A stretch of 64,000 nt of DNA from Sipunculus nudus (Eukaryota > Annelida > Sipuncula > Golfingiida > Sipunculidae). The position numbers and the translations under genes were made by a program. Shown here one piece after another: positions 5,347 through 59,225 of this stretch. The stretch is from contig CM049310.1 in NCBI GenBank assembly GCA_026874595.1, positions 42,721,558-42,785,557 of the forward strand, written 5' to 3'. The notes beneath the pieces were generated by a model. The model worked only from the letters and a program-made list of their open reading frames with translations, was not told where the DNA came from and ran no database searches. Numbering within the stretch: the first letter of the stretch is position 1; each line of letters begins with the position of its first letter.

Positions 5347-5859
5347 TCAGACTAGATGGATTTTGGTAATCCAAAAGTTGTAAAAGACTTGGTCAGAGCC
5401 ATGATAATACCAACACCTTACAATGGCATTTATTTTGCGTAATGGTATTGCCTCAAGGAACCTGGTAGATGCGCACATAATTGTCAGGAAGTATTCATGT
5501 CCAGATTTTGATTTGAGCAGTGGTCCAACACAATCAACAAGGGTCCTACTAAATGGTTCCTCAAAATCAGGAATAGGCCTAAGTGGAGCTTTAGGAGGAT
5601 TCTGATTTGGCTTGACTACCATATGGCATGTGTGGCATGATTTACAATATTGTACAACATCTGTCCTGAGGTTAGGCCAATAGAAGTGTGCACTCACTTT
5701 CTGATAAGTTTTATTTATACCTAAAAGGCCAGACAAAGGAGCCTCATGTACCATGCCTAGAATTTCATTGGGATAACTTATGGGCATTACTGTTTGATGT
5801 TTGATGGCCCACTTATCATCAGCGCATACATCGGGTGGTCGCCATTTAAGTATAAGCAC
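5347..5859 (-). pseudogene. Gypsy integrase zinc-binding and proximal core
   Basis: About 170 codons. The zinc-binding region shows HEAP, then GINKTYQKV, FYWPNLRTDV and CKSCHTCH. The second histidine of the usual HHCC pattern appears replaced by leucine (GLLG). The core follows with LVDCVGPL, which carries the first catalytic aspartate, then SKSGHEYFLT. Near the end the frame shifts around the expected second aspartate (GSDQ). The integrase is therefore inactive. Confidence 0.8.
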
Positions 5860-6269
5860 TCCATTTTTAACAGAGAAACAAACTGGGTTCTGTGACGGTT
5901 CATCGTTAGAAACTGCTCTGGGAAATAAACATGAAATATCGGGGCCTTTATGCTGTACCGCGATAAGTTCTGACTTTGAAAATGCTGCATCCTATACGGG
6001 TGAGGCGTTAAACGAATCACTAGTGACTCCTAGACTCCTAGACTGTTATTATCTGGACCAATTTCCTCAGGTATGTTTTTCTTTGCCATAAATCTAGTAA
6101 CAGCACATGAAGGATACAAACCAGGAATGTCCTGATTTTCAGGATCGTTGTCCGGATCAAGTGACGGCTTTTCTTTTGCTATTCGTACGGGCTGTACTAT
6201 GTCACCTGCAACATCATTGCTTAGTAAGACCTGAAATCTCTTAAAGGGTAAAGTAGTTCTTATGCCCAC
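5860..6269 (-). pseudogene. Gypsy polyprotein spacer upstream of integrase
   Basis: A minus-strand frame at 6030-6269 contains VLLSNDVAGD and, further on, YPSCAVTRFMAKK. These resemble the linker between protease and integrase in Gmr1-like polyproteins. A second frame at 5787-6020 continues toward the integrase after a frameshift. No protease active-site DTG/DSG motif was identified with confidence. Confidence 0.5.
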
Positions 6270-9984: not shown

Positions 9985-10560
9985 ATGTAAACTTTTCCAT
10001 GAAAATCACTTCGTAATGGTCGTGTAAAAACTGGAATGTTGTGTCATAACGGGATGGTAGTGTCAGAGTGGGGTGTTTGTGTCATAACGGGATGGTAGTG
10101 TCAGAGTGGGGTGTTTGTGTCATAACGGGATGGTAGTGTCAGAGTGGGTGTTTGTGTCATAACGGGATGGTAGTGTCAGAGTGGGGTGTTTGTGTCATAA
10201 CGGGATGGTAGTGTCAGAGTGGGGTGTTTGTGTCATAACGGGATGGTAGTGTCAGAGTGGGGTGTTTGTGTCATAACGGGATAGTAGTGTCAGAGTGGGG
10301 TGTTTGTGTCATAACGGGATGGTAGTGTCAGAGTGGGGTGTTTGTGTCATAACGGGATGGTAGTGTCAGAGTGGGATGTTTGTGTCATAACGGGATGGTA
10401 GTGTCAGAGTGGGGTGGTTGTGTCATAACGGGACGGTCTTAACACAAAAATTGCTTTCAGTAGGGAACTGAAGGGGTGATATTTTCATATTTTTCGCCAT
10501 GCCAATCCCTGATCTATCTGATTATGTTCTTATAATTAAAAGAATTACAAGTACTTATTA
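9985..10560 (+). repeat. Block homologous to 48470-48850
   Basis: Starts with GGGGAAACCTGAAGAAAAA and ends near ATATTACCAGAC. Both flanks of the minisatellite (GTAAACTTTTCCATG on the left; GATTGCTTTCAGTAGGG-like and CCCTGATCTATCT on the right) match the block at 48.47-48.85 kb in the same orientation. It may be a further piece of the large duplication. Confidence 0.7.
10041..10438 (+). repeat. 38-bp minisatellite, about 10.5 units
   Basis: The unit is GTGTCATAACGGGATGGTAG followed by TGTCAGAGTGGGGTGTTT. Units are nearly identical, one lacks a G and a few carry single substitutions, so expansion or homogenisation is recent. The homologous site at 48.5 kb has only a few degenerate units. Confidence 0.92.
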
Positions 10561-15564: not shown

Positions 15565-16372
15565 GTGCCCCGGCCCGGTAGCCCATGACCTGAATACCGA
15601 TGACCGGCCCCTCGGACCAGTAAGCTCCGCCTACTTCAGTTTGACAGTTTTACAGTTGTCATGATGCCTAACAAAATCCCTTTTTTAACATTGATAAACC
15701 ATTAAATTTTATAATTTATATATTGAAACCGATTCTCATCGGAACATTTAGTGAAAAAATACAACTGTCACTTGCGCTTATATCCCTGTTTTCCACTCAA
15801 AACGAAATTTCTCTTCCCAAACAGTTTTTGGCCGTTTTCTCAAAACAGTATTTCAGGAGACTGTACGGTCTTCAAAGCGATATTTCTCAAAAACCGTCAA
15901 ATATAGAGTCTTCAAATTTTGAATATAGGTAAATCAACAAGTATTCTAAAATGTGATTTTTTTCTTTTTTCTATATCGTTTTTAGTATAGTAGAAATACG
16001 TTATTTAAACAAAATAAGTTATGTAAACATCACACATTTTTTTAAAATTTAAATTTCATTATGAAAAAAAGACTTTAAATATATAACCAAAAAAACGCCT
16101 GGAGATATTTGTATGTAGTTTCAAATGATACTATTTCCACACACATACCCTATGCCAATTTTGAGATATATCCAATTAAAAAAAAATATTTTAAATCATT
16201 TCAAGTTTTAAATTTTCAAAGTGGACACTGTTACACTTTTTAAATATACCTCATCTGATAAAGAATTTTCCGAGGATTCTAAATATATATACATCACTGT
16301 GTCCAAAATTATTATTAATATGAATTCTAAAGCTAAATTAACCCAAGGTTGTTTGACGATGATTAGACCTTA
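15565..16372. other. Non-coding AT-rich stretch
   Basis: No domain or element end recognised. Confidence 0.4.
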
Positions 16373-16377
16373 AAGTG

Positions 16378-16432
<55 letters not shown>

Positions 16433-16954
16433 CTGAAATTGAAAGATAGCATAAACACAAAAATATTATGCATATTAAAGATATTTCATAGATACATAAA
16501 TATATTATTATTCATATTAAATATATTAATTATCGTGAATAAGTGAATGTACGAGAATTAGAATGTAGAGTTATGTAGAGTAAACTGCTGGTGCATGTGC
16601 ATGCTTTTAGATGAAACAAAAAGCAGGTCAAAGCTCTTTTTTCATGCAATTCACAAATCAATGTTTGATGCGAATATTTTTTTAATGTTTGATGAAATAC
16701 ATTTATGACAATATAGACAATAATGTACTTATCTTTACTGCAGTTAATATCAAAATAAAAATTAATGGTGAATGTTTTATATTTTACAAAAATAAATACT
16801 CCTTAATTTTTTATACATTAGTATTAATTTAGTAGTTTAATACCTCTGTTCTGGTCAAAGCATAAAGAATAAAATGCTATATAGTATAAAGCCACGAGTG
16901 CAAAATATGGTGGATTACAAATAGGGCACGTAACTCTATAAATGCTTTATTTAC

Positions 16955-17255
16955 TGTAGGCCCACCTGTTACTGTCAGTTGTGCACTCCTTCGCTCCAAA
17001 GAGTACCCATTGTTTGCTACGCACGTGTACAACCCCCTGAACCCTGACCCTTGATGTTCGGCGTTCTCCGTCACAATTCGTAGAGAATTGTTGGCAATTT
17101 GTACCGGAAGAAGTCATAGAGAAGAGGTCCTTCATTCCAGAGCCATTCTACAATTACAGGCGTGCTGGGATCAGTCACAGCCACACAGTCGAAGATGACT
17201 GGCTCACCAGGTACGAGATGAACGTTCCCGGGCGGTGTCACGATACGGGTCCTCT
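16955..17255 (-). pseudogene. Copy A exon 10, Ig5, frameshifted
   Basis: Acceptor GTAG after 17255, then the Ig5 coding sequence with EPVIFDC, a WLWN tryptophan and GLYTCVANN. A one-base deletion at 17093-17094 breaks the frame. The best donor (GTAAAT) ends the exon one base earlier than in copy B, so the exon is 301 nt against 303. Confidence 0.8.
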
Positions 17256-17897
17256 CTACAAGAACAATTTACCACTTTTTAGAACATGCGCAGGGCAACC
17301 CGTTTTAAATAAAACCCCGTTTTATTATTAAAACTATGTCATATACGCTCCCATAGAAAATGAAGACCTATCATTTAATTAGGGTAAGGGCAGCCAATAT
17401 GTCCAAAATGGGTAAATGTTGACCTGATAGTCTGGGGCTGAACTAACAACGTGGCATTGCACCTCAGTGTGGCATGAATCGCGCTTGTGCATAGCTCCTA
17501 TAATTTTTTTCTGTTCTTAGACGTGCTTTAAAAAATTAACGTACAAAAACATTCTTTGACAAGGATAAAAATTGTATTTTTGTATTCTAATTTCTTTTGT
17601 CCGGCTTATAGAGTTTAGTGTTTCATGGATGAACATGGAGGAGGGTATTGGGTGACGCATCCCATGCCAACTCATAAAAATAAATATTTAAAATGATAGA
17701 AAATGCACGCTTTATACGCAAAATTTTCCGGACTGCTCTTTTCAAACTGCCCAGGAATGTATTATTACGGCCTAAATTTTCAACGGAGACACTGGCGGAG
17801 GCCCATATAACTATCGTGACGGTCATAACCAGGATATAAACAGGCTTTGTTCTTTTGTTATATCGATTCAATGCCAAAATTTTATAAAACGTGTGTA

Positions 17898-18899
17898 TCT
17901 ATCTAATACTTATAAAAAGGATTCGGTTCACTTTTGTTCGCAATGTTCTCTAAAACCGCGTTGTGTACAATACTGTGCCATGCATCATTTCAAAGGTTTT
18001 TATCCCCGCAGTGACATAGGCGATATAAGAATAAATAATTTTTATGTACATATAATATTGAGTGATTTTTCCCTTTTTACTGACTAGCACGGAGGTTAGA
18101 CCAAGCACAGCTGAACTGACTTCGGCAATGGCCGGAATGCGTGCATCGTGGTCATTCAACCTCAAACACTATTAAGGACTATTGTTCATATGAATAATGC
18201 TTGCTTTCAGTGGGGGATTTGAGTATGTCTGGCCTTACATTTGAACGAGCCTCTCACCCACGTGCGTCGTCAGTAAAAGAGAAAAACACAAGTTTCTCGC
18301 TTTATGAAATAGAGAGTTCAACCCAGGAGGATTAATGACAACACCTAATTCAAGGTCCCAATTTAAGAAACAGGGGTGGGGTGGGGTTGAGTTGTGGCGG
18401 GAGTTTCAGGCCTCAATATTTGTCTGATACGATGAAAAAAGGTTGCGGTGGCTCAAAATGGGAAACGGACCCTCTGCATGGACTCCCGTTGGGTTCGCTT
18501 ATGCTACTAATGAAGTATGCATATTTCTGTTTCTTTCTTCAGGAACAGTTTACTTGCAACGTACATTTAATAAATCTTTCATGTGTTCCTCACAACAACC
18601 TAATCTTTATACGTCCAACGATAGAATCCAGTCAAATATCACCGAAAACCGGAATGCCCCCGCGTCTCATCCCGGTTCGCAAATGTAAACACCATCACTG
18701 ACCAGGTCTTCAAGGTAAACATACCGCGTATGAATTTCTTGCCACGAGCACAGCGGCACAGTTTCCCAGACAGTTTCCCACTGAAAACCTTTATTTTCTG
18801 TTAACTTTTGGAATAAAAATGAGCCAGCATTCCACATCTTAGTTAATATATCTCACCAAACCCCGGCAATAAGCCCGGTATACCCGGTTTATCAGCTAG
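17898..18899 (+). mobile_element. Helitron-like non-autonomous element, copy A
   Basis: Starts TCTATCTAATAC and ends with a GC-rich palindrome (CCCGGTATACCCGG) eight bases before a terminal CTAG. It sits between A and T with no target duplication. These are the structural marks of Helitron ends (5' TC, 3' hairpin, CTRR). Copy B of the gene has an uninterrupted site here (GTGTATCATATATAAG near 53160), proving insertion after the duplication. No Rep/helicase is encoded. It lies in the intron between the Ig5 and Ig4 exons. Confidence 0.82.
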
Positions 18900-19085
18900 T
18901 CGTATATAAAGAGACCTAATTGCCGCTCTCGCATCCTTTGTTCGCCTGGGGCATGGCCACCCTTTTGAAACCACACTATCCAAGACCTTCAGGTCAAGGG
19001 AATGCAGTAAGGGTTATACGTTGATATCACAAGCAGGTTATATATGTCGGCCTAAAATCGTGGTCAGTGAAGAGTAATCAAAAAG

Positions 19086-19205
19086 GTATCTTACTTAAGG
19101 TGTAGGTGTCTTACTTAAGGTGTAGGTGTCTTACTTAAGGTGTAGGTGTCTTACTTAAGGTGTAGGTGTCTTACTTAAGGTGTAGGTGTCTTACTTAAGG
19201 TGTAG
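19086..19205. repeat. 20-bp tandem repeat, six units
   Basis: The unit is TTACTTAAGGTGTAGGTGTC. It lies in the intron about 50 bp downstream (in gene sense) of exon 9. Copy B has a single related unit at about 53350-53372, so this array grew after the duplication. Confidence 0.95.
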
Positions 19206-19254
19206 TTACGAATCTGACACAAGGAGATTAATACTTTCATAAAGTTTCCATTAC

Positions 19255-19419
19255 CTAGCACATTCAGGTAGGCTCCTCCTATCAGTTTACCATGAGTGTT
19301 CTCCAAGACGCACTGCACGTTCATCAGATCACTGCTTCCTCCAAGCCGAGCCTTTCTGACATTGGTAACGGTCAAGTATTCTCCACTGATCACCAAGTTA
19401 GGCTTTATTACCGTTGCAA
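19255..19419 (-). CDS. Copy A exon 9, Ig4 second half
   Basis: 165 nt. Acceptor TTACAG, donor G|GTAATG, phase 1 to phase 1. Encodes the C-terminal half of Ig4 with the second cysteine in MNVQCVLEN and a THGKLIGGAYL strand. Confidence 0.85.
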
Positions 19420-19809
19420 CTGTAAGTCATAACTTTTATTTTACATGTGCTTGTATGGGTAATATGATTTATCACTACAAAATGATTTGGAGATAAAAAT
19501 ATATTTACATAACGGCGGCTCGGCGCTTCGTTTTAAAATGAGCCACGTAGATGTGTCATGCAGCTATGAAATACCAATTAACATTATATTTTAATTCTAA
19601 TGGGAATTAAGATCACATTTGGTTCACATGTATCACTGGTGTCCACAGGTATATTTACGGATCGCTTGGGAAAAAAAAGGATTTTTATTCCCAGTATAAT
19701 GTAATATTTAAATACACGTGCCAAAATATTCATGTATTATCGAGCGAAAACTAAGTGTTAGGAAACTTAACGAATAACAAGAGTGACAAAATGTATTGAA
19801 AGTCCCGAC

Positions 19810-19953
19810 CAGACAAGATACTGATGAGCCATTTCCTGGTCACCATGGGAACACCTTCACCATCACACACGAATGTAGCGTTTTCTCCTTCCGTCACGTT
19901 CAAATCCATTGGCATCATTGGATTTCCTTGTTGCTTTATCCACCTTGGCTTCA
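19810..19953 (-). CDS. Copy A exon 8, Ig4 first half
   Basis: Acceptor GTTACAG. Contains NVTEGENATFVC (first Ig4 cysteine, two N-glycosylation sequons) and the RKW tryptophan. The homologous donor is a poor GTCGGG at this boundary; a better GTATCT donor would end the exon at 19822, four codons shorter, in the same phase. Confidence 0.8.
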
Positions 19954-20620
19954 CTGTAACAGTAATTCCAACATGCATTACGCAAACACCATATACCATA
20001 TTAACCACATATTTCCACATGAGTTTGACTACATTTTGGTGTGATCAGAATTGTATTACAACATTATTAAAACATATTGTCATGTCATGTGAAAGTTCAT
20101 GGCTTTGAGGTTTCAAGACAACGGATTTTGTAGGTGATTGATACAACATAATTGTCCTGTTGGTAGCGGTAATCGCAAACATGTTTTTTTTATTGTTGAC
20201 AGATTTTACGGAACATGAATATAACTCAAAGGGGCACAAGCTACCCGTCAAATGTATAAAAATTTACAAGGAAAAACAGAATTATTGAGATTTTGAGACA
20301 TTAATATGAAGGCTGATATTTTTTTCGGATTTGTTTCGTAATTTAAATAATATTTTTATGGATGTGCTACACTCTGAAGTAGACATACTTAAGAATGTTG
20401 CCGAGAAGAGGCCAGTATTCGGTGCATCAATATTCAAAAGCTGGCGTGTTATTGTGCCCATGGTGTTTGATTTATATAAACTATCTATGTTTCTGTTATT
20501 AACAAATATGACAGAATCCTAAACCGTAGTAGACTGAGGATCATTTATTAGAGATTTTTCATTCATTTATTCGTTGAGTGAAATATTAAAATTTGAACCG
20601 ATTTATGCTTTTTTTCAAAC

Positions 20621-20790
20621 CTTCCACTTTATGCTCTATGCTGTGTTGTTGTGACTGCCCAGCGATGTTGGACGCTCGACAGTTGTAGGTTCCTGAATGT
20701 TCTACTTTGGGATCTTTGATCCTAAACAGATGGTTATCCGCCGTATGGTCCTGAGGGAGATCGCCAGTCCAATACACTGTGGGTAATGGG
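20621..20790 (-). CDS. Copy A exon 7, Ig3 second half
   Basis: 170 nt. Acceptor TTTACAG, donor G|GTTTGA. Contains LPTVYW (Ig tryptophan) and HSGTYNCRASN (second cysteine). Phases 2 and 1 match its neighbours. Confidence 0.85.
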
Positions 20791-20994
20791 CTGTAAAGTA
20801 TAAAGCACATCAGAATGATTTTATTAGTACACATAGTTTGTACAATGTAACATCAGAAAATCAAGAAAGTGCTCAAGCCTTGTGTTGTTATCTTTTACAA
20901 TTCCCGGTATTATTGTTATATGGCATTATTATAATTATTATTATTATTATTATTATAGCTTTTGCTTAATGTTCTATCACACACTGACACCTAC

Positions 20995-21100
20995 TATCCA
21001 CTGAATATACAGCGTAGAGTGACTTCTGCTACTCTTTCCAGAATCTTGACAACAGGACCAGGCTGGTACATCAGCTCTGGAGCTTTAGGTGTCTTTGGCC
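20995..21100 (-). CDS. Copy A exon 6, Ig3 first half
   Basis: 106 nt. Acceptor ATTTAG, donor GTAGGT. Contains AEVTLRCIFSG with the first Ig3 cysteine. Confidence 0.8.
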
Positions 21101-21177
21101 CTAAATATACAACAATGATAATTCATGAATTAGGGCCAGAAGCCTTTAAGCCTCAGGTTTATATATATATAATATAT

Positions 21178-21230
<53 letters not shown>

Positions 21231-21232
<2 letters not shown>

Positions 21233-21405
21233 GGGAAACCTCGAAATTACGATCACCAACGGGATCTTGATAAAGTGGTCGCATTTTCAAGGTGGTCGCT
21301 TAAGCGATGTGTGATATAAAAAGCAAAAAAATAAGAGACCATGGAAAATGTGGTCGTTATATTAAGGTGATCGCCTAACTTAGGTGGTGGTTAAGCGAGG
21401 TTTTA

Positions 21406-21410
<5 letters not shown>
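21231..21410. mobile_element. MITE-like element with TACAGTAAAACCTCG-type end
   Basis: The left end reads TAGGGAAACCTCGAAATTAC; the right end, on the other strand, reads TACAGTAAAACCTCGC. Internal GGTCG/AAGTGGTCGC motifs repeat in both directions. TA microsatellites flank both sides. A right-truncated relative lies at the matching place in copy B (55722-55835). Confidence 0.55.
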
Positions 21411-21450
<40 letters not shown>

Positions 21451-21556
21451 TTATAATTATATATAATATTGCTGATTCATTTAGAATGATTTACCTGCAA
21501 CGTTTTTGTTCCATATAAGAAAACTCCGGCAGCAGTTCCTTGAAGAACCAACCAAA

Positions 21557-21593
<37 letters not shown>

Positions 21594-21689
21594 TTATAAA
21601 CAATACAAGTGATAATGTTTCTCTCTTTCCGTTTTTCCCTTGTATTTAACACAATGTTGAATTAATATTATGTATCTTATCCTACAGAC

Positions 21690-21815
21690 CAGGCAAGACA
21701 TTAACTGAAGAGTAGCTTCCCCCTTTGGCAACATCAACTTCAGAATTACGGATGTAACATTTGTACAGTAGAGTTCCTCCATCACCTGGCTCAGTGTACA
21801 CAAACAGCAGGTTGC
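21690..21815 (-). CDS. Copy A exon 5, Ig2 second half
   Basis: 126 nt. Acceptor TTTCAG, donor G|GTCTGT. Encodes GNLLFVYT and LLYKCYIRNSEVDVAKGG, the second Ig2 cysteine. Phase 1 on both sides. Confidence 0.82.
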
Positions 21816-22801
21816 CTGAAATGGTAAAATATGATTTTATAAGGTACAACTGAAGACCACTGGATCATACACTACACTCATGAAACCATCTGACAGTGTT
21901 AAATGTTACCATTGCGATATTATAGCAATGTTAGGAAACAGACGACTCGGTAATCAGTGATGAAAGTAAGATGTCAGCTGATATCATACTACTTTAAAAG
22001 TTACATGTAATCACAAGAGGCAACATTAAACATCAGTATTTCAACTCTCACGGACATTTTAATGAGGAGTAAAGTATGTATGTAAATTTTATTTTATTCC
22101 CTAAATGAAGAATACATACATTTATTTTCATTTGATTTTTTAAAGTTATCCTGTTCAGAGTAGCAAAGGAAAAGATGCATTAATCTGTACAAAATATATA
22201 TTGTTTAATATAGCTATATAGATAATATTTTGAGATTAAAGAAGTGAAAAGTAATAATTATCATTGTGAATTAATCCCTGCATTTAAACTACACCAGACG
22301 TAAAAGTGTATCAAGACATGAAGGGGTTCCTCCAATTATCTATGTGTAAACCGTATCAGCATGGACCAGGACCTCATGTAAAAAAAATTGGGCAGTGGGA
22401 ATATTTGATCTCAATACCCGGTAACGAGATAAATAAATACATATAAAAAAAAAATAAAACAAATAAATACAAAACTACCGGTTTTGTATTACAATGAAGT
22501 TTGTAATGATTTCTCCCAATGTTGGGCCAGTATCCCCGATTGCTCTGTCAGATTTTCTCAATGGTAAATCAATTTCCCCTCGTGCTGTGGACGAATTTTC
22601 CCCAAAGCTGACCCATTTCCCGCAATGCTTTGGGAGAGGAAACATTCAAAAGAATGAAGCTGTCGGTCTTGTTTGATGTCAATATAACTGCCTCTAGTCT
22701 CTTTATTGAAAGATATTTCCTTGGCTCCAAAAACCTTTAACCAATAAAAATATGAGGAAGCCCTCGCCAACCCCACACCCCCACCCAGCCTGTTTCTTTG
22801 C

Positions 22802-22993
22802 CATTATCATCTATGGTACGCCTCCTGTTAGGTCTTATGGGTATTGGGTATTTGTCAGAGATGTCATTAGCTCTGCTCCAGGTGTATGTCGGTGCAGGAT
22901 TACTCGCCAGTGACTTCACATATACTTGCAAACTGTTTCCCTCTTTCACCTGGTAGTTACGGATACTGGGTTTTTCCTGATAATCATCTATGT
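22802..22993 (-). CDS. Copy A exon 4, Ig2 first half, GC donor
   Basis: 192 nt. Acceptor ACATCAG. Encodes RNYQVKEGNSLQVYVKSLAS and the YTW tryptophan. Valine stands where the first Ig cysteine is expected. The donor is G|GCAAAG, against G|GTAAAA in copy B: either a rare GC-AG intron or a splice-site mutation. Confidence 0.82.
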
Positions 22994-23268
22994 CTGATGT
23001 AAACAAAATACTGATCAAGTCATTTAATTGATCGAGTGACACACGATCCATGGAGCTAAGCATGATATCACGTAATGACTTCTTTGCATGACCGTCTGTT
23101 TGTTACATGAAACCAAGATAGCAAAGACGAGGGGTTTGAAAAATTAAATGATAATTTAATACTTTTGTTACAAGGTGGATATAAAAGTAATAATAAATAA
23201 CCGATATACTGAAGAAAGAACATTCATAATTTTAAGATGGATTTATAGATTTTTAGTGCTAAACTTAC

Positions 23269-23444
23269 AGGCTCTTGTGATGGTAGCAATTGGGGACATA
23301 GCTGTTCCATGGCTATTTGTTGCAAAACACTGGTATTTTCCTTCGCTTAACTTTCCAGGTCCACGTAATCTGTAGCCGCCATCAATATGAATGGCCCCCG
23401 TCCCAGAAAAGTCATAAGCTGCTCCATTTCTTTCCCATCTTATA
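23269..23444 (-). CDS. Copy A exon 3, Ig1 second half
   Basis: 176 nt. Acceptor TTACAG, donor T|GTAAGT. Contains IRWERNG, GGYRLRGPG and EGKYQCFATNSHGTAMS, the L1/neuroglian Ig1 signature. Confidence 0.9.
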
Positions 23445-23445
23445 C

Positions 23446-23671
23446 TGTAAATATTAAGATCAGCATATGAATATTTATAAATCCTGATATTGTAAATATA
23501 AAGATCAGCTTATGAATATTTATAAATCCTGATATTGTAAATATAAAGATCAGCTTATGAATATTTATAAATCCTGATATTGTAAATATAAAGATCAGCT
23601 TATGAATATTTATAAATCCTGATATTGTAAATATAAAGATCAGCTTATGAATATTTACAAATCATAAGGTT
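23446..23671. repeat. 45-bp tandem repeat, five units, abutting the exon 3 acceptor
   Basis: The unit begins TGTAAATATAAAGATCAGCT and ends AAATCCTGATAT. The array starts directly at the 3' splice site of exon 3 and runs into the intron. Copy B has only about two units (57386-57470). Confidence 0.93.
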
Positions 23672-24620
23672 GACAGTATTGTTCCCTTCTTATTCTGGGA
23701 GTACGAAGACAGTTTGCCATTAGATGATGTGACCTAGCATTGACAAGTCATTTACAGGAGCCAATTCCGATATATGACGTGTGTTAAAGCCAGCTATTAG
23801 CCTGTCTTATCTGTAGAATTTATGCGATTTCTGAATTATTCTGTGTATACATATTGATAAACAGCAGATAATTCCTGCTAAGAAAGATGTTCACACGTCC
23901 CTGTAACGGATATATAAGTTTGTCTATCCGGAAACGGTGGGTAAATACGGTCCATGTGATCAATCAGAAAAAAACACGTTAACTTGGATTGTAGGTTGCA
24001 TATGTGAGGAAGTTGAAAGTCACTAGTTGCAATCAAACTGCACAAATCTGGTTCATCTGACTTGTGGCTAGATGTCCTTGTTGACAATTTTTTATTATTA
24101 ATGTGATATAAAGATGTTATAAACTCCAGGGTGCAAACAAAACAAACAGTCTGCGTACCGGGGCGCTTTCTGATCTACTTTTAAGCTGAAAGACTTAAAA
24201 TATCGGAATAGTCCCCTTTAAAGGATCATGTATATCCACGACCTTCATAGACGACGAAAGAAAATATTTGACCATGTGTTAATTATTTTCCTCATAGACA
24301 CTCTGTTCCATTTTTTAAGAAAATTGCTAAATACTCTGAGAACATGGTCCGCTTCGTAGGTCACATACTTATGACGATACAAACCTGGCCCAAGCTTGTA
24401 TTTTATTCACAGATGCATAGACAGTCTAAGTGAATTGGACTGACCCGATGACATCAGACGGATGAACCTTTTTGATAATATCGCTTAGAAATCAGAGGAA
24501 AGATGGACCTTTACAAAGTCTGGTCTGATCATATTCGTTATGCAGGAATAATTAGCCGAACTTGTATAAAAAAACTATAAACAATCTCTTAAGAACGCTG
24601 TTCCTATTTTAATTACTTAC

Positions 24621-24729
24621 ATTGGGACCGGGATTCCTGATGCCTTGCATATGAGGTCTAGGTAATTTGTAGGACCAGGAACAAACGGCGTGTCTCCAAT
24701 GAAAATTTCGATTTTAGGAGGGCGACGCA
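24621..24729 (-). CDS. Copy A exon 2, Ig1 first half
   Basis: 109 nt. Acceptor TTCTTCAG, donor GTAAGT. Encodes RRPPKIEIFIGD and YLDLICKASGIPVP with the first Ig1 cysteine. Confidence 0.88.
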
Positions 24730-25196
24730 CTGAAGAAAAATGTGTTTTACGTTTTAATGTTAACGTGTTAAAAACATTATATCTCAAATATTTAATATAT
24801 TATGTTTTCTCTCAAAATCACAAGAAAGAATTAAACTGCACAGTTATACTATCAGTACAATCAAATTTGATTTAAAATGGTTTGATCATATATTTAAATA
24901 AAAAATAATTATCTAAAGAGACGTAATCAAAGCAAAAAATAATATTGTAAATAAAGAGATTACTGTAGTTGTATGCACGTTATCTCTTCTTCAACTACAA
25001 GTTTACTTTCAATTTTATTTAAAAATTTGTATGAATGCTTTAGTTATAGTATATGAAAACAAGATTTGTCGTTTAGGAACATGGTGGTAACAAATAATAC
25101 TGGGCTAAATCGTTCTTTTAAAGATTATCCCTACTCACTTTTTTTAATGTAATCATTTTATTAATGTGCTTAGAAAGAACGATGAAACCCACTTAC

Positions 25197-25260
25197 TGGG
25201 TTGTGAAAATACTGCAGTTGCTAAAATACAAAGAATGACTGAAACACCGTACAGGCCCAT
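25197..25260 (-). CDS. Copy A exon 1, signal peptide
   Basis: Begins at the ATG read from 25260 and encodes MGLYGVSVILCILATAVFSQ, a typical secretory signal peptide (hydrophobic core, AVFS cleavage region). Donor A|GTAAGT in phase 1 matches exon 2. The start is chosen because it is conserved with copy B. Confidence 0.88.
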
Positions 25261-25385
25261 GGTGATTCTACGCACGCTGTCACTATATGTAGAAGGATCT
25301 ACCAATCAGCGGCGTGTACGTTCCACTGGAACAGTGAAAACGTATTATGTTAGCGATGCCATTCTGTTTGAATAAATTAACTAGT
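25261..25385 (-). promoter_or_regulatory. Conserved upstream block of copy A
   Basis: About 120 bp upstream of the ATG is conserved with 59101-59225. It holds an inverted CCAAT box (CCAAT at 25302-25306 on the plus strand, ATTGG in gene sense) and a GCGATGCCATTCTGTTTG block. It may be 5' UTR and core promoter. No clear TATA box assigned. Confidence 0.3.
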
Positions 25386-25739
25386 GACCCATGTGCCATG
25401 ACGCTCAGTGGAATCTGACACACGGCTAAAGGCCTGTGTATTATTAGGTTTTAACACACCATAGGTATCAGACTGACAGTTGTAGTCTGTCATTCTCAAC
25501 AAAAGACCTAGTCTTTCATTCACCCTATGCACAACTATACATAATGATGGGTAAAAATAAAAAACACAGAGAGTTTCCATTATTAAGCATGATACCTATG
25601 GATACAATGTGCATGCCATTCAGAAAAATGAAAATATACCATTTCCAGGTCAGAGTAAATAGGTAACAACGTTGTATCACCTCTAACAAATCACATGATC
25701 CATATATGGTTATGGACAAAACATCCTATAAGCAATCAC

Positions 25740-28200
25740 AGTGACCTACCTAACGGTTTCGTTTCAAGACCTTTCCGTATGTGAAGTTTGAACTTCCTAG
25801 GTCGTGTGGTTACCACTTGTATCTTGTTAATGATAAACAACGGCTTTCAAGGTTTTCTTTACATACCTGATGAAATATAGGTCACAGTGACGTACGTTCT
25901 GGTTTCGATAGAGTGCCTCCTGGTAGAAGTTATCAGATGGGTCTTCCAGTTACAAATTGAGCCCGGTTGACAGTTTTGATTCTAATATTTCCGCTTCATA
26001 AGTCATAGGTCAAAGTGACCTACTTTTCCACAGAGAATCTATCAGAACCTGTCAGCAAGTGAAGTTCCTGTGCCTCATGGTTTGGAATTGTGCCCTGTTA
26101 ACGGACTTACAGATGTATCCTGATGTTTGCTTCATAACTCAGAGAAAATAGGTCACAGTGACATATGTTCTGGTTTCGAGCTCTTTCGGTTACAATGTGT
26201 GCCCTGTTCACAGTCTGACATATGGATTATGATGTTTTCACTGCGAAATATTTGTTACAGTGGCCTACCGTTTTATTTCCACAGAGAACCTGTCAGTGCC
26301 TGTCAGTGTGTGAAGTTTGAACTTCCTGTGTGTTAAGTATACGGTGTATGCCCTGTAAACGGAGGGAGAGACGGACGCATATATAGACAGACGACGGACA
26401 AAGGCCCATCCCTATAGCTTAGATGACATTCAGTCAGCTGAGCTAAAAAGAATATGAGCTTTAAACATACAATTTTTTAACTCAAAATAAATTTATAACT
26501 TTCGTTTATAAAGTCAGCTAAAGTCAAGTTGTTCCCGTGCGCAAAAACGACAAACCTACCAACGAAGGCAAAACAATTTTACTTCCTGAAGGATGTGAAT
26601 AAAATAAGTAAATCTTTTTCTTCTATGATGCAATAGTTTAAAAGATGACTTGATGTATAGTAAGTCTTATAAATTGAGAAAAATGCAGCCACGTCTCTTA
26701 AAGCTTGTTGTTTCTCGTCCGATTTCTACAAAATACTGGATCTTAATCAGATTCGAAGTCAACTGTAACGAATCATGAAATCTGTCCTAAAGGGTGCTCA
26801 AATCATGTTCGCTCACATATCTTGGAGAATATAGGTAACCGTGGCCTAATTTCAGGTTTCCACAGAGATTTATTCAGGACTTCCCTGAATGTCATGTTAG
26901 AAGAATCTAGGCCAAATGGATACAATTCGTGCCCCATCTGACTCACTAGGTACTAAAATCATGTTTTTGGCATGTAGTTTGCAAAATATAGGTCACCATG
27001 ACCTAATTTCAGGTTTTCAAGGAGATTTGCCATGGACCTCCCTAAAGATGTACTGTTAGATGTTTCTATGTCTACCAGTTCAGGTGTGTACCCAGTTAAC
27101 GACCGGACTGCTTGATTTGAAAGTCTCGAAAATAGAAAAAAAATGCGTAAAAAATAAGGGTGGCGTCACCGGTCTTTAGGAACTGATGAAGCGACCCATG
27201 CTCTGTATACATATAAAGAATGATAGCAATCAGTGCACTATTATTCAGCTACATGAGTTTATGTATCAAATACTTAATTATTCTGGGGTGCAATGGAAGG
27301 CCACCTAACTCAGAGCGTATAAGTTGCAGGGACTTAATTTCAGTTGCCCAGAGAGATTTTTCAAAGAAGTCCCAAGTTATTCCAGGTGCAACAATAAAGT
27401 TTTGTGCCCTGCTTGAGTGCTTAAAATCATGTTATTGGCCAGAAGCTCACAGATTAGGGTCTCCATGACCTAATTTCATGTGTCCATGGAGGTTTGCCCA
27501 AGACTTTCCTGGATGTTACGTTAGAAGATGCTAGTGGTTGCAATTAGTGCTCCATCTGACTCATTTGGTGCTCAAAATCATGTTTTCCGCCTGCATTTCG
27601 CAAAATATAGGTCACCATGTCCCACAGTTACAAGTTTCTAGATCTAACGATTACGACTGGTGTCATTTTAACGGCTGTACTGCTTTATTTGAAGGTTTAA
27701 AGGGACATGAAGGTGCGTAAAAATCCGATTAAATACAGGTGGCGTCAATAATTGTCAGGAGGTCCAGCGATTACGATTTGTGCCGTGTTAACGGACGACC
27801 GGGCGGACGGACGACGGACAAAATGTGGTCGCTCTAGCTCAGATGACTCTCAATCAGCTGAGGTAAATATTGATCAAAGTATTGACCTGCGCAATTTACC
27901 AGACACATTCATGTGCTACAGTCAAGCCCATATATTACAAATCTTAGTGTTTAGAGTATATTTCAGTATATTTAGAGTATATTTGAAAATATGTAAATCT
28001 AACCTTTCTTCACTCGTCAGGGCTTAAGATATTTGTTTTAATTATTTCGGGGAGGGGGGGGGGGGAGGGATACTTAAGAGCCCCATAGCTCGGAGGATAT
28101 TGGTCGCAGTGACCTAATTTTAAAATATTCTAGGAGGATTTTAAATGGACTTCCAAGGGTTTTAGATAGAATTTTCTAGGTCATTCGGTTACAAGGAGTG
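25740..28200. repeat. Diverged array with AGGTCA-type palindromes
   Basis: Units of about 130-200 bp share an ATAGGTCACAGTGACCTAAT-like core, TTTCAGGTTTCCACAGAGAT-like text, an AAGTTCCTAGGT-like block and a GTGCCCTGTTAACGGAC-like block. Sub-arrays end with ACGGACGACGGACAAA and AGTCAGCTGAGCTAAAA (near 26390-26450 and 27800-27865). Perfect AGGTCANNNTGACCT palindromes occur at 26007-26021 and 26990-27004, with near matches at 25879, 26150, 27609 and 28102. Part of it (26460-26640) aligns with 61860-62060 in copy B. No coding exon. Confidence 0.7.
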
Positions 28201-48469: not shown

Positions 48470-48850
48470 TGGGGGAAACCTGAAGAAAAAATGTAAACTT
48501 TTCCATGTAAATAACATCGTTATGGTCGTGTCATAACGGGAATTTTGTGTCATAATTGGGTGGTCTTGTCATAACGGGATGGCCGTGTCATTATGAGGTG
48601 GTCGTGACATAACGGGATGGTAGTGTCAGAATGGGGTGATTGTGTCATAACAGGATGGTCTTGACACCAAGATTGCTTTCAGTAGGGCACTAAAGGTGTG
48701 ATATTATTATAGTTTACGCCATGGTTAGCCCTGATCTATCTAATAATGTTATTATACATGTAATTAAAGAACTACAATTAATTATTATTTACAAGTATGT
48801 ATTTCTTTCTAATTAAAAAATATTACCAGACTTTTATTCCTTTACAAAAA
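48470..48850 (+). repeat. Block homologous to 9985-10560, few minisatellite units
   Basis: Matches the left and right flanks of the 38-bp minisatellite. Here the CATAACGGGATGGT motif occurs only a few times and is diverged, so the long array at 10 kb is derived. Confidence 0.75.
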
Positions 48851-50111
48851 TATAAAATCGAAGAAAGGAAATTTTCACCTGCAAATGACTCAATGTTAGG
48901 CCATCCTAGACCATAGCGCAGAGTGAATTAAGCCTCGCGGATCCATGGAAAATACTTCTTATTAGAGGAGTCCGCTCCTGGACCATGTGATACACCATCG
49001 AAGTATCTGTTTCAAAATTAGAGATAGGCCTATATAAATAGGGCATTTATGGAAACATTCTTTTACAATGCAATCAGAACATTATTTTTCGGATATTTCT
49101 ATTTATCCGTTTAGTTTGTACAACAAAATCAACAGATATATATTGAAATAAAAACCCGTAGAACATTTTTTTACAAACCGTTGCCTTCCGATTGTGCCGC
49201 CGAGGTCGCTCATGGTGTCAAGGACCTGCTGTCATTAAGCCTTTTCTTGTAGACCAAAACACAATTGATGTTACAGAAACCATACAAATCACTTCATCAA
49301 TGCGATGAATGAATTCCGTATTCACCCAAGTTCCCTCTGATTTGCGGGTTGATAGACTTTCTCATATTCACAGAAGAACATGTATTCTTTTAAGTTTAGA
49401 TTTAAAATGTACCGTCTTGTCTGTTCTCAAACAGCAAAATTATCGCTAAACCATGATAAGTCACAAGGGTTAAGCAAGTATTAGTTGTTTTGATTTAGCT
49501 GAATACATCAGGATTTATCACGGATTTCTTCTGAAACAGCACTTTAACGAATGTAACCTCACACTTGTACAACTGTCAGGAGGCCTCTTCTGATTAGAGA
49601 TTTACGGTATTCATTGAACCATACGCGTGTTCTTCTGCTTTACTCAAGCCGCCTGATTTGTTTTATTGTTTTGTTAAGAAAATTGTTGAGAATCCAGCGT
49701 TAGGATCCCGTGCGGCGTTCACTTTATTTACGGTGAACTACTCACCTATGTCTTCTTTTACTATTTATAAGAATTAAAGATCACTTAAATATACAAGGTT
49801 ATTCTATAGCCTTACCTTTTTTATCAATGTAAGTAATGAAATAACAATGTGATTGCTGAAAAAGATATTTATATGCAAAGATATCATGGCAAGTGATCAC
49901 CGAAAAGTAATACATACTTGCTTATCTTAACTTATGATACTTATATACTGATTTCCCCTTTTTTTGAATGTAGCCGACAAAGCCGTGTCAGATTTCCTGC
50001 CACTATACACATATATAGTTAAAACATAGCATTAAACCATGGTAGAACTGTATCACTGTGCCTGAACCGCTCTTCCTGCCATGTGGCGGTTACTTCATAA
50101 CTAGCTCGATT
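48851..50111. other. Non-coding stretch
   Basis: No gene or repeat recognised. Confidence 0.4.
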
Positions 50112-50117
50112 AAAGTG

Positions 50118-50160
<43 letters not shown>

Positions 50161-50441
50161 TAAAAAAACTGAAATTTAAAGATAACATAAACACAAAATA
50201 ATATGTAAATTAAAGATATTATATGGATACATAAATATATTATTCATATCAAATATATTAATTATCGTGAATGGGTGAATGTACAAGAATTAGAATGTAG
50301 AGTTATGTAGAGTAAACTGCTGGTGCAAGCGCATGTTTTTAGATAGACAAAAAGCAGGTCAAAGCTCTTTTTCATGCAATTCACAAATCAATGTTTGATG
50401 GAATTTTTTTGGAATGTTTGATGAAATACATTTATGCAATA

Positions 50442-51568
50442 CTAGCTGATAGACCCGGTATACCGGGCTTTATCTCTGGGCTGGGGAGATAAATAACTGA
50501 GATGTGAAATGTTGGCTCATTTTTTTTATTCTAAAAGTTAACAGAAAATATAGGTTTCAGTGAGAAACTATCTCCATAAGACATGTATAAACATTTTGGC
50601 ACGACTGCAGAATAACCGACGCATCTCTCTGAGGCACAACACTTCTGTGATCAGAAAACGTTTCTATGTCCAACTGCCACTTACTTTTAAATTACATGAA
50701 TCATAAACGTCATACCGTCCGTCCGTATAAACTCATCACCTAGTGGAGACAGTGCGTGAGTGATCCTGCAGTCGCTCCAATATTGTTAACATTTATTTTG
50801 TGGGGCTGTCCTCATGGCAAGAAATTCCTTCCCCGTAATGTTTACCTTGAAGACCTGGCCTTTGATGACGTTTACATTGCGAACCGGAATGAGACGCGGG
50901 GGGAATTCAGGTTTTCGATGATATTTGACTGGATTCTATCATTGGACGTATAAAGATTAGTTTGATGTGAGGAACACGTGAAAGATTTTTAAATGTACAT
51001 TGCAAGGAAACTTTTCCTGAAGAAAGAAACAGGAATATGCATACCTCGTAAGTAGCAGAAGCGCGGACCCAACGGGACTCCATGCAGAGGGTCCGTATCC
51101 CATTTTCAACCACCGCAACCTTTCTTTCATCGTAACAGACAAATTTTGAGGATTGAAACCCCAGCCACACCCAATCCCCCCCCCCCCCCACCCCACCCCA
51201 GCCCTATTCCTGAAATTGGGACCTTGAATTAGGTTTTGTCATTAATACTCGTGGGTTGAACTCTCCAATTAATAAAGCGAGAAACGTGTTTATCTCTTTT
51301 ACTGACCACGCGCACGTGGGTCAAATCCTTCATTGAAAGCAAGCGTTATTCATATGAACAATAGTCCTTAGTGTTAGAGGTTAGGTGACCACGATGCACG
51401 CATTCCGGTGTATGCCGAAGGCAGTTCGGCTGTGCTCGGTAAAAAACGGAAAAATCACTCAAAATCATAATGTAGATTAAAAATTATTCATTTTCATATC
51501 GCGGGGATAATAACATTTCAAATGATGTATGGCACAATATTGTACACAACGCGGTTTTGGATATTAGA
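50442..51568 (-). mobile_element. Helitron-like non-autonomous element, copy B
   Basis: On the minus strand it starts TCTAATATCC (or four bases earlier, TCTATCTAAT) and ends with a perfect palindrome CCCGGTATACCGGG (50454-50467), eight bases, then CTAG, followed by T. The empty site is intact in copy A near 16706-16720 (TTATGACAATATAGACAATA). Its interior aligns along its length with 17898-18899 in reverse orientation. No protein is encoded. Confidence 0.85.
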
Positions 51569-51853
51569 TAGACAATCATGTACTTATCTTTACTGCAGTT
51601 CTGAACGGAATTTTAATAAATCGGTTGAAAACAGGTACATTTTCTACTATCAAATTAAAAATAATGGTGAATGTTTTATATTTTACAACAATGGATACTC
51701 CTTAATTTTTCTCATACATTAGTACTAATTAAGTATTTTAACACCTCTGTTCTGGTAAAACCATAAAGAATAAATGCAATATAATATAACGCAAAGAAAC
51801 AAAATATGGTGGATTACAAATTAGACATGTTACTCTCATAACTGCTGTATTAC

Positions 51854-52156
51854 CTGTAGGCCCACCTGTTACTGCCAGTTGTGCGCTCCTTCGCTCCAAA
51901 GAGTACCCATTGTTTGCTACGCACGTGTACAACCCCCTGAACCCTGACCCTTGTTGTCTGGCATTCTCCGTCAACAATCGTAGAGAATTATTGGGCAATT
52001 TGTACCGGAAGCAATCATAGAGAAGAGGTCCTCCATTCCAGAGCCATTCTACAATTACAGGCGTGCTGGGATCAGTCACAGCCAGACAGTCGAAGATGAC
52101 TGGCTCACCAGGTACGAGATGAACGTTCCTGGGCGGTGTCACGATACGGGTCCTCT
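51854..52156 (-). CDS. Copy B exon 10, Ig5
   Basis: 303 nt, open. Acceptor CTTGTAG, donor G|GTAATA. Contains VTPPRNVHLVPGEPVIFDC, VEWLWN and GLYTCVANNGYS. An extra cysteine lies in YDCFRYK (Phe in copy A). If the donor is not used, the frame runs on for about 38 codons, ending in a hydrophobic stretch. Confidence 0.88.
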
Positions 52157-55100
52157 CTACAAGAACAGTTTACAGTTATGTAACTTATGTTAACCTTCAT
52201 TATACTGAGCCCCTATTGTTGAACATGCGCAGGGCAACCCTATGTTCAACAACCCTATTATTAAAAATACGTTTTATTTGTCCAAAAAGGTATGGGTTTC
52301 GGCACTTTTATTTTTGATCTTTTTTGTATGTTTCGATAAAAATGTCATATGATCAGGGAATTGTATGGCAAAAAAGGTAAACAAAGAAAACTTATCAACA
52401 TTGTTTTATTTTATCTCCTTTAAAGATGAAAATCAAATAATTTTTTTAGGGGGGGGGGGGGTAAAATTGACTCGGGCGGTGCTTGACAACCACACCTTTA
52501 TTTTTTTGGCCTTACGCTCCCAATTTGTTACTGTCCGATAGGAAATGGAGACCTATCATTTAATAAGAGTAAGGATAACCCATATGTCCAAAATGGGTAA
52601 ACTTTGACCTGATAGTCTTGGGCTGAACTAATAACGTGGCATGGCACCTCAGTGTGGCATAAATGGCGCTTTTGCATAGCTCCAGTAATTTTGCTGTTCC
52701 TGGACGTGCTTTAAAAAGTACAATACAAAAATATTCTTTGACAAGGATACAAAATTGCATATTTGTATTCCATTTTTATTTTTGGCCGGTTTATAGAGTG
52801 TAGCGTGGAGAAGGGTAATGGGTGATGCATCCCACACCAACAAATAAAATAAATATTTAAAATGATAGAAAAATGCACGCTTTATACGGATAAATATCCC
52901 GGACTTCTCTTTTCAAACAGCCCCAGAATGTACCATTCCGGCCTTAATTTTCAACAAAGTCTCTACAACAAGCCTGCTCACCACCCAATACGCATTCGGG
53001 TCTCGCTATATGAGCACTACACACGAGCACACGGACGGGAAGTAACACATACCCTCCTGGCGGAGGCCTAGATAACTATTGTGATGGTCATAAAAGAAAG
53101 ATATAAACAGGCTTTGTTCTCTTTTTATATCCATTCCATGCCAAAATTGAATAAAACGTGTGTATCATATATAAGGAGACCTAACTGCCGCTCACGCATG
53201 CTTTGTTCGCCTGGGGCATGGCTACCCTTTTGAAACCACACTATCCCAGTCCTTCAGGTCCGGGGGATGCAGTTAGAGTTTATACGATGATATCGTAACC
53301 AGGTTATATATGTCGGCCTAGAATTATGGGCAGTGAATAATAAATAAAAAGGTGTCTGACTGGAAGGTGTAGGTACGAATCTGACACAAGGAGATTAAAA
53401 CTTGCATAACGTTTCCATTACCTAGCACATTTAGGTAGGCCCCTCCAATCAGTTTACCATGGGTGTTCTCCAAGACGCACTGTACGTTCATCAGATCGCT
53501 GCTTCCATCAAACCGAGCCTTTCTTGCATTAGTAACGGTCAAGTATTCTCCACTGAACACCAAGTTAGGCTTTATAAACCTGGAATCTGTAAATCATAAC
53601 TTTTTTTTGACAAGAGCTTGTATGGGTATATGATTTATCACTAAAAAATGATTTGGAGATATAAAGATATTTACATAACGGCAGCACAGCACTTCGTTTT
53701 AAAATGAGCGACAGGGATGTGTCATGCAGCTATGAAATATCAATTAATATTATATTTTAATTATAATTGGAATTAGGATCACATTTGGTTCACATATATT
53801 ACTGGTGTCCACAGGTATCATTACGGATCGCTCCGGTAAAAAAATTATTCTCGGTATAATGGAATATTTAAACACACGTACCAAAAATAACCTAGTATTA
53901 TCGAGTGAAAGACTATTTGTTAGGAAACTTAACGAATAAAAGAATGTGACATAATGTATTGAAAGTCCCTACCAGACAAGGTATTGACGAGCCATTTCCT
54001 GGTCACCATGGGAACACCTTCACCTTCACACACGAACGTAGCGTTCTCTCCTTCCGTCACGTTCAAATCCATTGGCATCATTGGATTTCCTTGTTGCTTT
54101 ACCCACCTTGGCTTCACTGTAACAGTATTTCCAACATGCATCGCGCTAACCACATAAACCACATATTCCCACATAAATTTGACTACCTTGTGGTGTGATC
54201 AGAATTAATGAGAACATTATTAAAACATTTTGTCATGTCATGTGAAAGTTCATGGTTTCAAGACAAGGGATTTTGTAGGTGACTGATGCAACATAATTAT
54301 CCTGTTTGTGGCGGTAATCGCAAATATGATTTTATTATTGTTGACAGATTTTATGGAATATGAATATGAATATAACTCTCGAAGTGGCACAACCTAACCG
54401 TAAAGTGAATACAAATTACAATAGCAGAATTATTAAGATATTTTTGAGACACCAATATGTAGGCTGATATTTTGTTTGGATTTGTTCCGTAATTTAAATA
54501 ACATTTTTTTATGTTTAGGGTGTTTACTCGCTATGGAACCCACCGATGGATGTGCCACACTCTAAAGAAGACATACTTAAGAATGATGCAGAAAAGAGGC
54601 CAGTATTCATTGCATCCATGTTATAGTGACCATGGTAATCATCTTTATTTTTGTTGTTAACAAATATGGCTGAATCCCAAATCGTAGTAGTCTGAAGATC
54701 ATTTATGAGAGATTATTCGTTCATTTATTCGTTAAGTTAATTATTAAAATTTGACCGATTTATGCTTTTTGTCATACTTTCCACTTTGAGCTCTATGCTG
54801 TGTTGTTGTGACTGTCCAGCACTGTTGGATGCTCGACATTTGTAGGTTCCTGAATGTTCTACTTTGGGTTCTCTGATTATCAACAAATGGTTGTCCGTCG
54901 TATGTTTCTGTGGGAGATCGCCAGTCCAATACACTGTGGGTAATGGGCTGTAAAGTATCAGGGACATCAGAATGATTTTATTAGTACACATTATAGTTCG
55001 TACAATGTAACATCAAGAAAGTGTGTTGTTATCTTTTAATAAGCAATCCAAGTTTTCTGGATGGAGAGCCACAACAGCTATCCATGTAAGATTAGGGACA

Positions 55101-55594
55101 ACATTTAAATATTTCGGATTATATTCTTTATACAATCAAACTGCAAACCTGAAAAAATAGATTTAGCAATTTTTATATTAAATTATAAAGAAACACATTT
55201 TCTTCTTCTTTTTTATCGATAGGCTCGCAGTTTAAACGTAATTTGACCCAAATGTTATTGCCATATTTTCATAAAGGGTATTACCCACAGTTATACTTCC
55301 AGCTTGTACCTGTATAGTGTTTCAATTAACGGTATTATTGTTTAATGGCATTATTATTATTATAATTATTATTATTATTTTTATTATTATGATTTAAGTT
55401 TTCGCTCAGTGTTCTATCACACATTGATACCTACTATCCGCTGAAGATGCAGCGTAGAGTGACTTCTGCTACTCCTTCCAGAATCTTGACAACAGGACCT
55501 GACCGGAACATCAGCACTGGAGCTTTACGTGTCTTTTGCCCTAAAATATACAAAAATGATAATTCATGAATTGGAGCGATGAGCCTTGAAGCCT

Positions 55595-55641
<47 letters not shown>

Positions 55642-55830
55642 CATATATATGTGTATATTTATTTATATATATAACATATATATGCACGCACACACGCACA
55701 AATTAAATATATATATGTATATAGTTAAACCTCGAAATTCCGATCACCAACCGGACCTCGATAAAGTGGTTGCATTTTTGAGGCGGTCGTCGAAGCGAGG
55801 TGTGATATAAAGAGCAAAAATATAATCGAG

Positions 55831-55881
<51 letters not shown>

Positions 55882-59100: not shown

Positions 59101-59225
59101 GGTGATTCTACGTAAGTTGCCACAAAATGAAGAGAGATCTACCAATCAGCGACGTACAGGTTCAGCTGAAACATTGAAAATGTATTATGTAAGCGATGCC
59201 ATTCTGTTTGCATAAATGAAATAGT
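59101..59225 (-). promoter_or_regulatory. Conserved upstream block of copy B
   Basis: Aligned with 25261-25385. Inverted CCAAT at 59142-59146 and the GCGATGCCATTCTGTTTG block are retained in both copies. Confidence 0.3.

Follow-up and report, generated by a model that had tools for sequence, protein, structure and literature searches.

Reciprocal Empty Sites and a Phased Downstream Target Preference in a Probable Canonical Helitron Family of Sipunculus nudus

Introduction

The sequences surrounding Helitron insertions have been described in both animals and plants. As reported in the available portions of the respective papers, the A+T richness around insertions of the bat element Helraiser is greatest at the 3′ flank (PMC4778049), and A+T-rich 3′ flanks are found for rice Helitrons and, to a lesser extent, for those of maize (PMC2575219), where the published logos may hold a phased signal. 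For an active wheat family, the accessible text gives the AT dinucleotide only (PMC13286980), and its logos may likewise hold a phased signal. Barley Helitrons are reported to prefer targets with an AAA triplet that begins 8 bp past the A-T at which they insert (PMC5738225), and this paper was the only one found to address an asymmetric Helitron target or an AAA triplet in the literature as far as its text was accessible. The non-autonomous Helitrons of the Pacific oyster are described in the available text as having a mean length of 1092 bp and a palindrome of 16–20 bp, with 86% of them located at A-T (PMC7992393). With respect to the enzymes, the motif RGSPHxH is given as the Helentron form and RGLPHxH as the Helitron form in the accessible part of the source (PMC4067079).

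Here, we analyzed a window of 64,000 nucleotides from S. nudus, that is, the whole stretch of DNA under study, in which a first-pass annotation had noticed two Helitron-like elements caught with reciprocal empty sites. We addressed the structure and insertion history of these two elements, the family to which they belong, the host sequence downstream of their insertion sites, and the possible source of the transposition enzyme.

Results

Reciprocal Empty Sites in a Local Duplication

Part of the window is duplicated; the two copies have diverged, and each of them contains one element. The main blocks of the duplication, as defined by comparison within the window, extend from about 16370 to 25764 in the first copy and from about 50110 to 59645 in the second, and weaker blocks reach as far as 29272 and 63975, respectively. 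Block alignment bore out the description of two related elements in opposite orientations, at 17898–18899 on the plus strand (element 1) and at 50442–51568 on the minus strand (element 2). For each occupied site, an intact empty counterpart in the other copy had also been claimed, and both were recovered by flank joining: the empty site of element 1 lies at 53164..53165 (A, T) in the second duplication copy, and that of element 2 lies at 16713..16714 (A, T) in the first. In particular, the joined flanks of element 1 matched the junction of the other copy, GTGTA^TC(A/G)TATA (the caret marks the insertion position), and the joined flanks of element 2 matched GTCTA^TATTG, where the empty site carries one additional base a few positions off the junction compared with the filled copy. 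At both window junctions, comparison with the empty sites placed the insertion between A and T without duplicated target bases, in agreement with the annotation. Because the joined flanks of each filled site reproduce the junction of the other copy, we concluded that two independent insertions occurred and that both are later than the local duplication. The K2P distance was 0.09–0.14 between the duplication copies (five aligned blocks) and 0.07 between the window elements and the family majority, the latter figure being inflated by source-copy differences; judged from the sequences, these values appear compatible with insertion soon after the duplication.

Structure of the Two Window Elements

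Element 1, a non-autonomous Helitron of 998 bp, extends from TCTAATAC to CTAG at 17902..18899 (plus strand), as delimited by its sequence and by comparison with the empty site and the family. The 5′ TC terminus had been placed at 17898; a TC start was confirmed, but the family terminus is at 17902. The four extra bases TCTA at 17898..17901 (plus strand), on the boundary between the host flank and the family terminus, are present neither in the empty site nor in the remaining scored copies, and they may represent either a 4-base tandem duplication that followed the insertion or a start at a TC located further upstream in the source copy. Near the 3′ end, the subterminal palindrome CCCGGTATACCCGG (18874..18887, plus strand) differs from the family tag by one mismatch, and the CTAG terminus (18896..18899, plus strand) is followed by a host T.

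Element 2, a non-autonomous Helitron of 1127 bp, lies at 50442..51568 on the minus strand, with its CTAG terminus at 50442–50445 and its 3′ subterminal palindrome at 50454..50467 (minus strand); relative to the family, about 40 bp are absent just inside its 5′ end. A 3′ end consisting of a palindrome plus CTAG had been proposed for both elements, and CTAG was indeed present in both, but the palindrome is perfect in element 2 only. Folding of the 3′ end gave a z value of −2.63 for element 2 and of −1.23 for element 1, whose palindrome is mutated and whose 3′ end is only slightly better folded than shuffled sequences.

Several further features were observed in the window. A fragment of a retrotransposon-type integrase (Integrase_H2C2) lies at 5347–5991 (minus strand). 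An immunoglobulin-type frame (Ig_3, I-set) is located in the second duplication copy at 51738–52169 (minus strand), and its first-copy counterpart at 16745–17272 (minus strand) contains no frame of more than 90 residues; for this reason, one copy of the frame may be decaying, as far as the sequence indicates. Related 38-bp tandem repeats occur at 10039–10437 (10.5 copies) and 48522–48660 (3.6 copies), about 38 kb apart and both beyond the main duplication blocks. A 45–46-bp tandem repeat is present in each duplication copy, with 4.9 copies at 23442–23663 versus 2.0 at 57382–57471.

A High-Copy Family with Shared Termini

The palindrome had been put forward as a family tag; with at most one mismatch, it was found at 2046 sites in the 1.43-Gb genome, compared with 92 for the reversed control. 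The copies read were 50 listed palindrome places of these 2046, a non-random sample located entirely on contig C1 and without palindrome mismatches, which comprised 24 long loci (3 kb each) and 26 short loci (174 bases each, without the 5′ end). As the copies were selected by the palindrome without mismatch, its conservation among them is by construction.

The family 3′ end was recognizable, with at most five edits, on one side of all 50 places. When the two window copies were included, the exact CTAG terminus was present in 48 of 52 ends and lacking in four, and a T directly followed the element in 51 of 52, the exception being a G in L071; none of the 50 listed places was left out of this 3′ flank count. 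The 5′ ends were scored in the long loci and the window copies, with the omission of L003, L004, L006, and L020, which had no usable 5′ match, and of L009, which has an irregular 5′ end without A. At all 21 scored junctions an A directly preceded the element, and TC formed the 5′ terminus in 20 of the 21 (AC in L014), a count that is partly by construction because the 5′ starts were located with the pattern TCTAATA. The family 5′ end is mostly TCTAATACTTATAAAAGG and the 3′ end is CCCGGTATACCGGGT(T/C)TATCAGCTAG, with the palindrome stopping 12 bases short of the 3′ terminus. The aligned elements (n = 22) measured 868–1226 bp, giving an overall family length of about 0.9–1.2 kb; L003, L004, L006, and L020 were also omitted from the divergence table.

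A Phased ATAA Preference Downstream of the Insertion Site

The 3′ flanks of the 50 listed copies and the two window copies (n = 52) were numbered with the T after the element as +1. ATAA was present at +7 in 20 of the 52 flanks and at +8 in five, and no further offset between 1 and 40 accounted for more than three. The preferred host site can thus be written A^T N5 ATAA(A). It is a preference and not a strict rule, since 32 of the 52 flanks lack ATAA at +7. The shorter ATA was found at +7 in 32 of 52 flanks, and AAA peaked at +9 (14/52). In 5000 rotations of the 52 flanks, the maximum at any offset was 9 compared with the 20 observed, and for the first 46 copies the observed count of 18 compared with maxima of 7 in 2000 shuffles and 8 in 2000 rotations. 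The motif is also strand-asymmetric, with A exceeding T at +7, +9, and +10 and T exceeding A at +8 (p from 4e-5 to 4e-3).

In the window, the host flank next to each element reads ATAAA from +7 through +11, at 18906..18910 (plus strand) for element 1 and at 50431..50435 (minus strand, in element orientation) for element 2, as judged by the flank count and the empty sites. The empty site of element 1 holds ATAA at +7, from which we concluded that the target motif was present before element 1 inserted. That of element 2 holds ATAAA too, although shifted to +8, and it is one base longer than the filled copy.

General A+T richness or easy melting downstream of the insertion, with no recognition of a motif, would be in line with the A+T-rich 3′ flanks of Helraiser and rice Helitrons, as the available texts describe them (PMC4778049, PMC2575219), and with the location of 5 of 46 copies in TA repeats. 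However, plain A+T richness accounts poorly for a signal confined to a single fixed offset, for the excess of A over T on one strand, for 20 occurrences in 52 flanks versus at most 9 in rotated ones, and for the occurrence of ATAA at +7 in the unoccupied site of element 1, and we regard it as an unlikely explanation of the phased ATAA. Specific recognition of the motif is the reading that we followed. In this regard, the family 5′ end reads A^TCTAATACTTATAAAAG, with TATAAA a few bases further in, and because of this resemblance the target may loosely imitate the site at which the donor is nicked.

Search for an Autonomous Partner

A search with the Helitron_like_N profile gave at least 143 matches with E ≤ 0.001 (150 of 195 candidates scored), with some loci holding more than one match. 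Fifty Rep loci were considered, namely the best 30 and 20 weaker hits selected by hand. Among the best 30, RGSPHxH was found in 26, RGLPHxH in one (L026), and neither in three; among the 20 weaker hits, the corresponding numbers were 13, one (L103), and six, and all 20, L103 included, were nearer to the Helentron query than to the L026 query.

L026, taken together with L080, is a single broken copy with Rep and PIF1 pieces spread over several frames. Its 3′ end, GGGTATATCAGCTAG, lies 24 bases past the last helicase frame and is identical to the family 3′ end at 22 of 29 bases, compared with a maximum of 19 in 50 shuffles. At the boundary, the terminal ...CAGGGTATATCAGCTAG is followed by the flank TGTATAATAAAC, which has ATAAA at +7. 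In the 3 kb examined upstream of L026, the family 5′ end was not recognized, and its helicase seems to lack the C-terminal part, judging by the family motifs. Since the helicase seems to be cut short and the family 5′ end was not seen, we consider L026, on the strength of its sequence, only a probable relic of the partner's lineage, short of proof. The search for an autonomous Rep/helicase partner that the annotation had suggested therefore produced one broken, truncated candidate and no intact one among the 50 loci, in which the canonical-type loci were broken relics only (L026, and L025 as assigned by profile score and by eye). For L025, with its broken Rep, 6.7 kb were examined and the family 3′ end was not found there, and the L028 and L036 regions were rejected as partners owing to the absence of the family ends. 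A repeat of about 69 bp was observed near the frame start in both the L028 and the L036 regions.

The same genome holds long open Helentron frames. In the L028 region, a frame open over 2235 residues includes DUF6570, OTU, Helitron_like_N, PIF1, and Exo_endo_phos domains, and the Helentrons L027 (G000 C7:31576948-31580559) and L028 (G000 C11:50383793-50387404), both with long open frames, are 99.7% identical over 1204 residues; this near-identity suggests that Helentron activity has been recent. The window elements could accordingly be imagined as Helentron-derived elements (HINEs), mobilized by the resident OTU-Rep-helicase-endonuclease elements. Element 2 has a single 12-base inverted pair (92%), 45–60 bases inside its ends, and Helentrons carry repeats subterminally at a comparable position; no pair of this kind was found at that place in element 1. 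Against a Helentron derivation, neither the palindrome (at most three mismatches) nor the family 3′ end (at most four edits) was found in either of the two Helentron regions examined (L028 and L036 with flanks, 10.6 kb each), and the window elements insert between A and T and terminate in CTAG, whereas Helentrons target T-rich sequence according to the accessible part of the source (PMC4067079). We thus hold a HINE origin to be very improbable.

Terminal inverted repeats were found in neither window element, both having been examined, and three of the 21 copies with two flanks showed a 4–5-base match near the junction, which is not remarkable given that shuffled flank pairings had a mean of 1.27 4-base matches (Poisson P(≥3) ~0.14). 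The elements are short, non-coding, and present in many copies, as a MITE or another cut-and-paste element would be, but the missing terminal inverted repeats and target duplications leave such an origin with almost no credibility. Scarcely any weight can be given, too, to the idea that the empty sites were once filled and lost their elements afterwards, which would need two precise reciprocal losses, whereas the family occurs dispersed through the genome (2046 palindrome sites). Consistent target duplications or different termini, named in the first-pass annotation as observations that would speak against a Helitron, were not seen in the 21 copies and the 50 palindrome sites, and its view of Helitron-type transposition after the duplication was upheld by the TC and CTAG ends, the palindrome, the A^T position, and the reciprocal empty sites.

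Discussion

We propose, with a probability of about 0.93, that the two elements belong to a high-copy family of non-autonomous canonical Helitrons, or rolling-circle transposons, of about 0.9–1.2 kb, with the target-site preference included in this reading. Under this proposal, a canonical-type Rep/helicase provided in trans would nick the element at A^TC, and the 3′ hairpin would serve as the terminator. The strand would then be joined at A^T, the target being chosen in part through contact with an ATAA that lies roughly one helical turn past the insertion point. The source of the enzyme may be extinct or rare, as the 50 Rep loci gave broken relics only.

The reciprocal empty sites in the duplication prove the Helitron landing position at the level of a single base, and with the flanks of many copies this empty-site proof can be used to test how targets are chosen. 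As a Helitron family it is unremarkable; what merits further attention is the phased target motif. A motif at a fixed distance and near that of barley suggests that target recognition by Helitrons exceeds plain A+T richness. Whether the canonical Helitron Rep/helicase recognizes an asymmetric A^T plus ATAA(A) about one helical turn further on, in plant (barley) and animal families alike, is in our judgment finely balanced; a specificity common to plant and animal families would therefore be old.

Among the known systems, Helentrons and HINEs are rolling-circle relatives with long open copies in the same genome, but they differ in their T-rich target, endonuclease domain, and RGSPHxH motif, as given in the available text (PMC4067079), whereas the present family has A^T and CTAG. 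The non-autonomous Helitrons of the Pacific oyster, likened here by description, are similar in size, in their TC...CTAG ends, and in that no autonomous element was detected there; however, 257 of 751 of those elements have subterminal inverted repeats, and the accessible text mentions no phased motif (PMC7992393). Helibat/Helraiser of the bat, also likened by description, shares the 5′ TC, the 3′ CTAG, and the insertion between A and T, and its palindrome lies 11 nucleotides before the end; the available text gives no phased ATAA, although the logo may (PMC4778049). The barley Helitrons, as described in the accessible part of the report, have a similarly asymmetric target, compared with which the AAA peak is at +9 here (PMC5738225). 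Since the AAA preference had been reported in that plant, the present motif extends the plant observation to an animal, in the fuller form ATAA(A) from +7 and also in the empty site.
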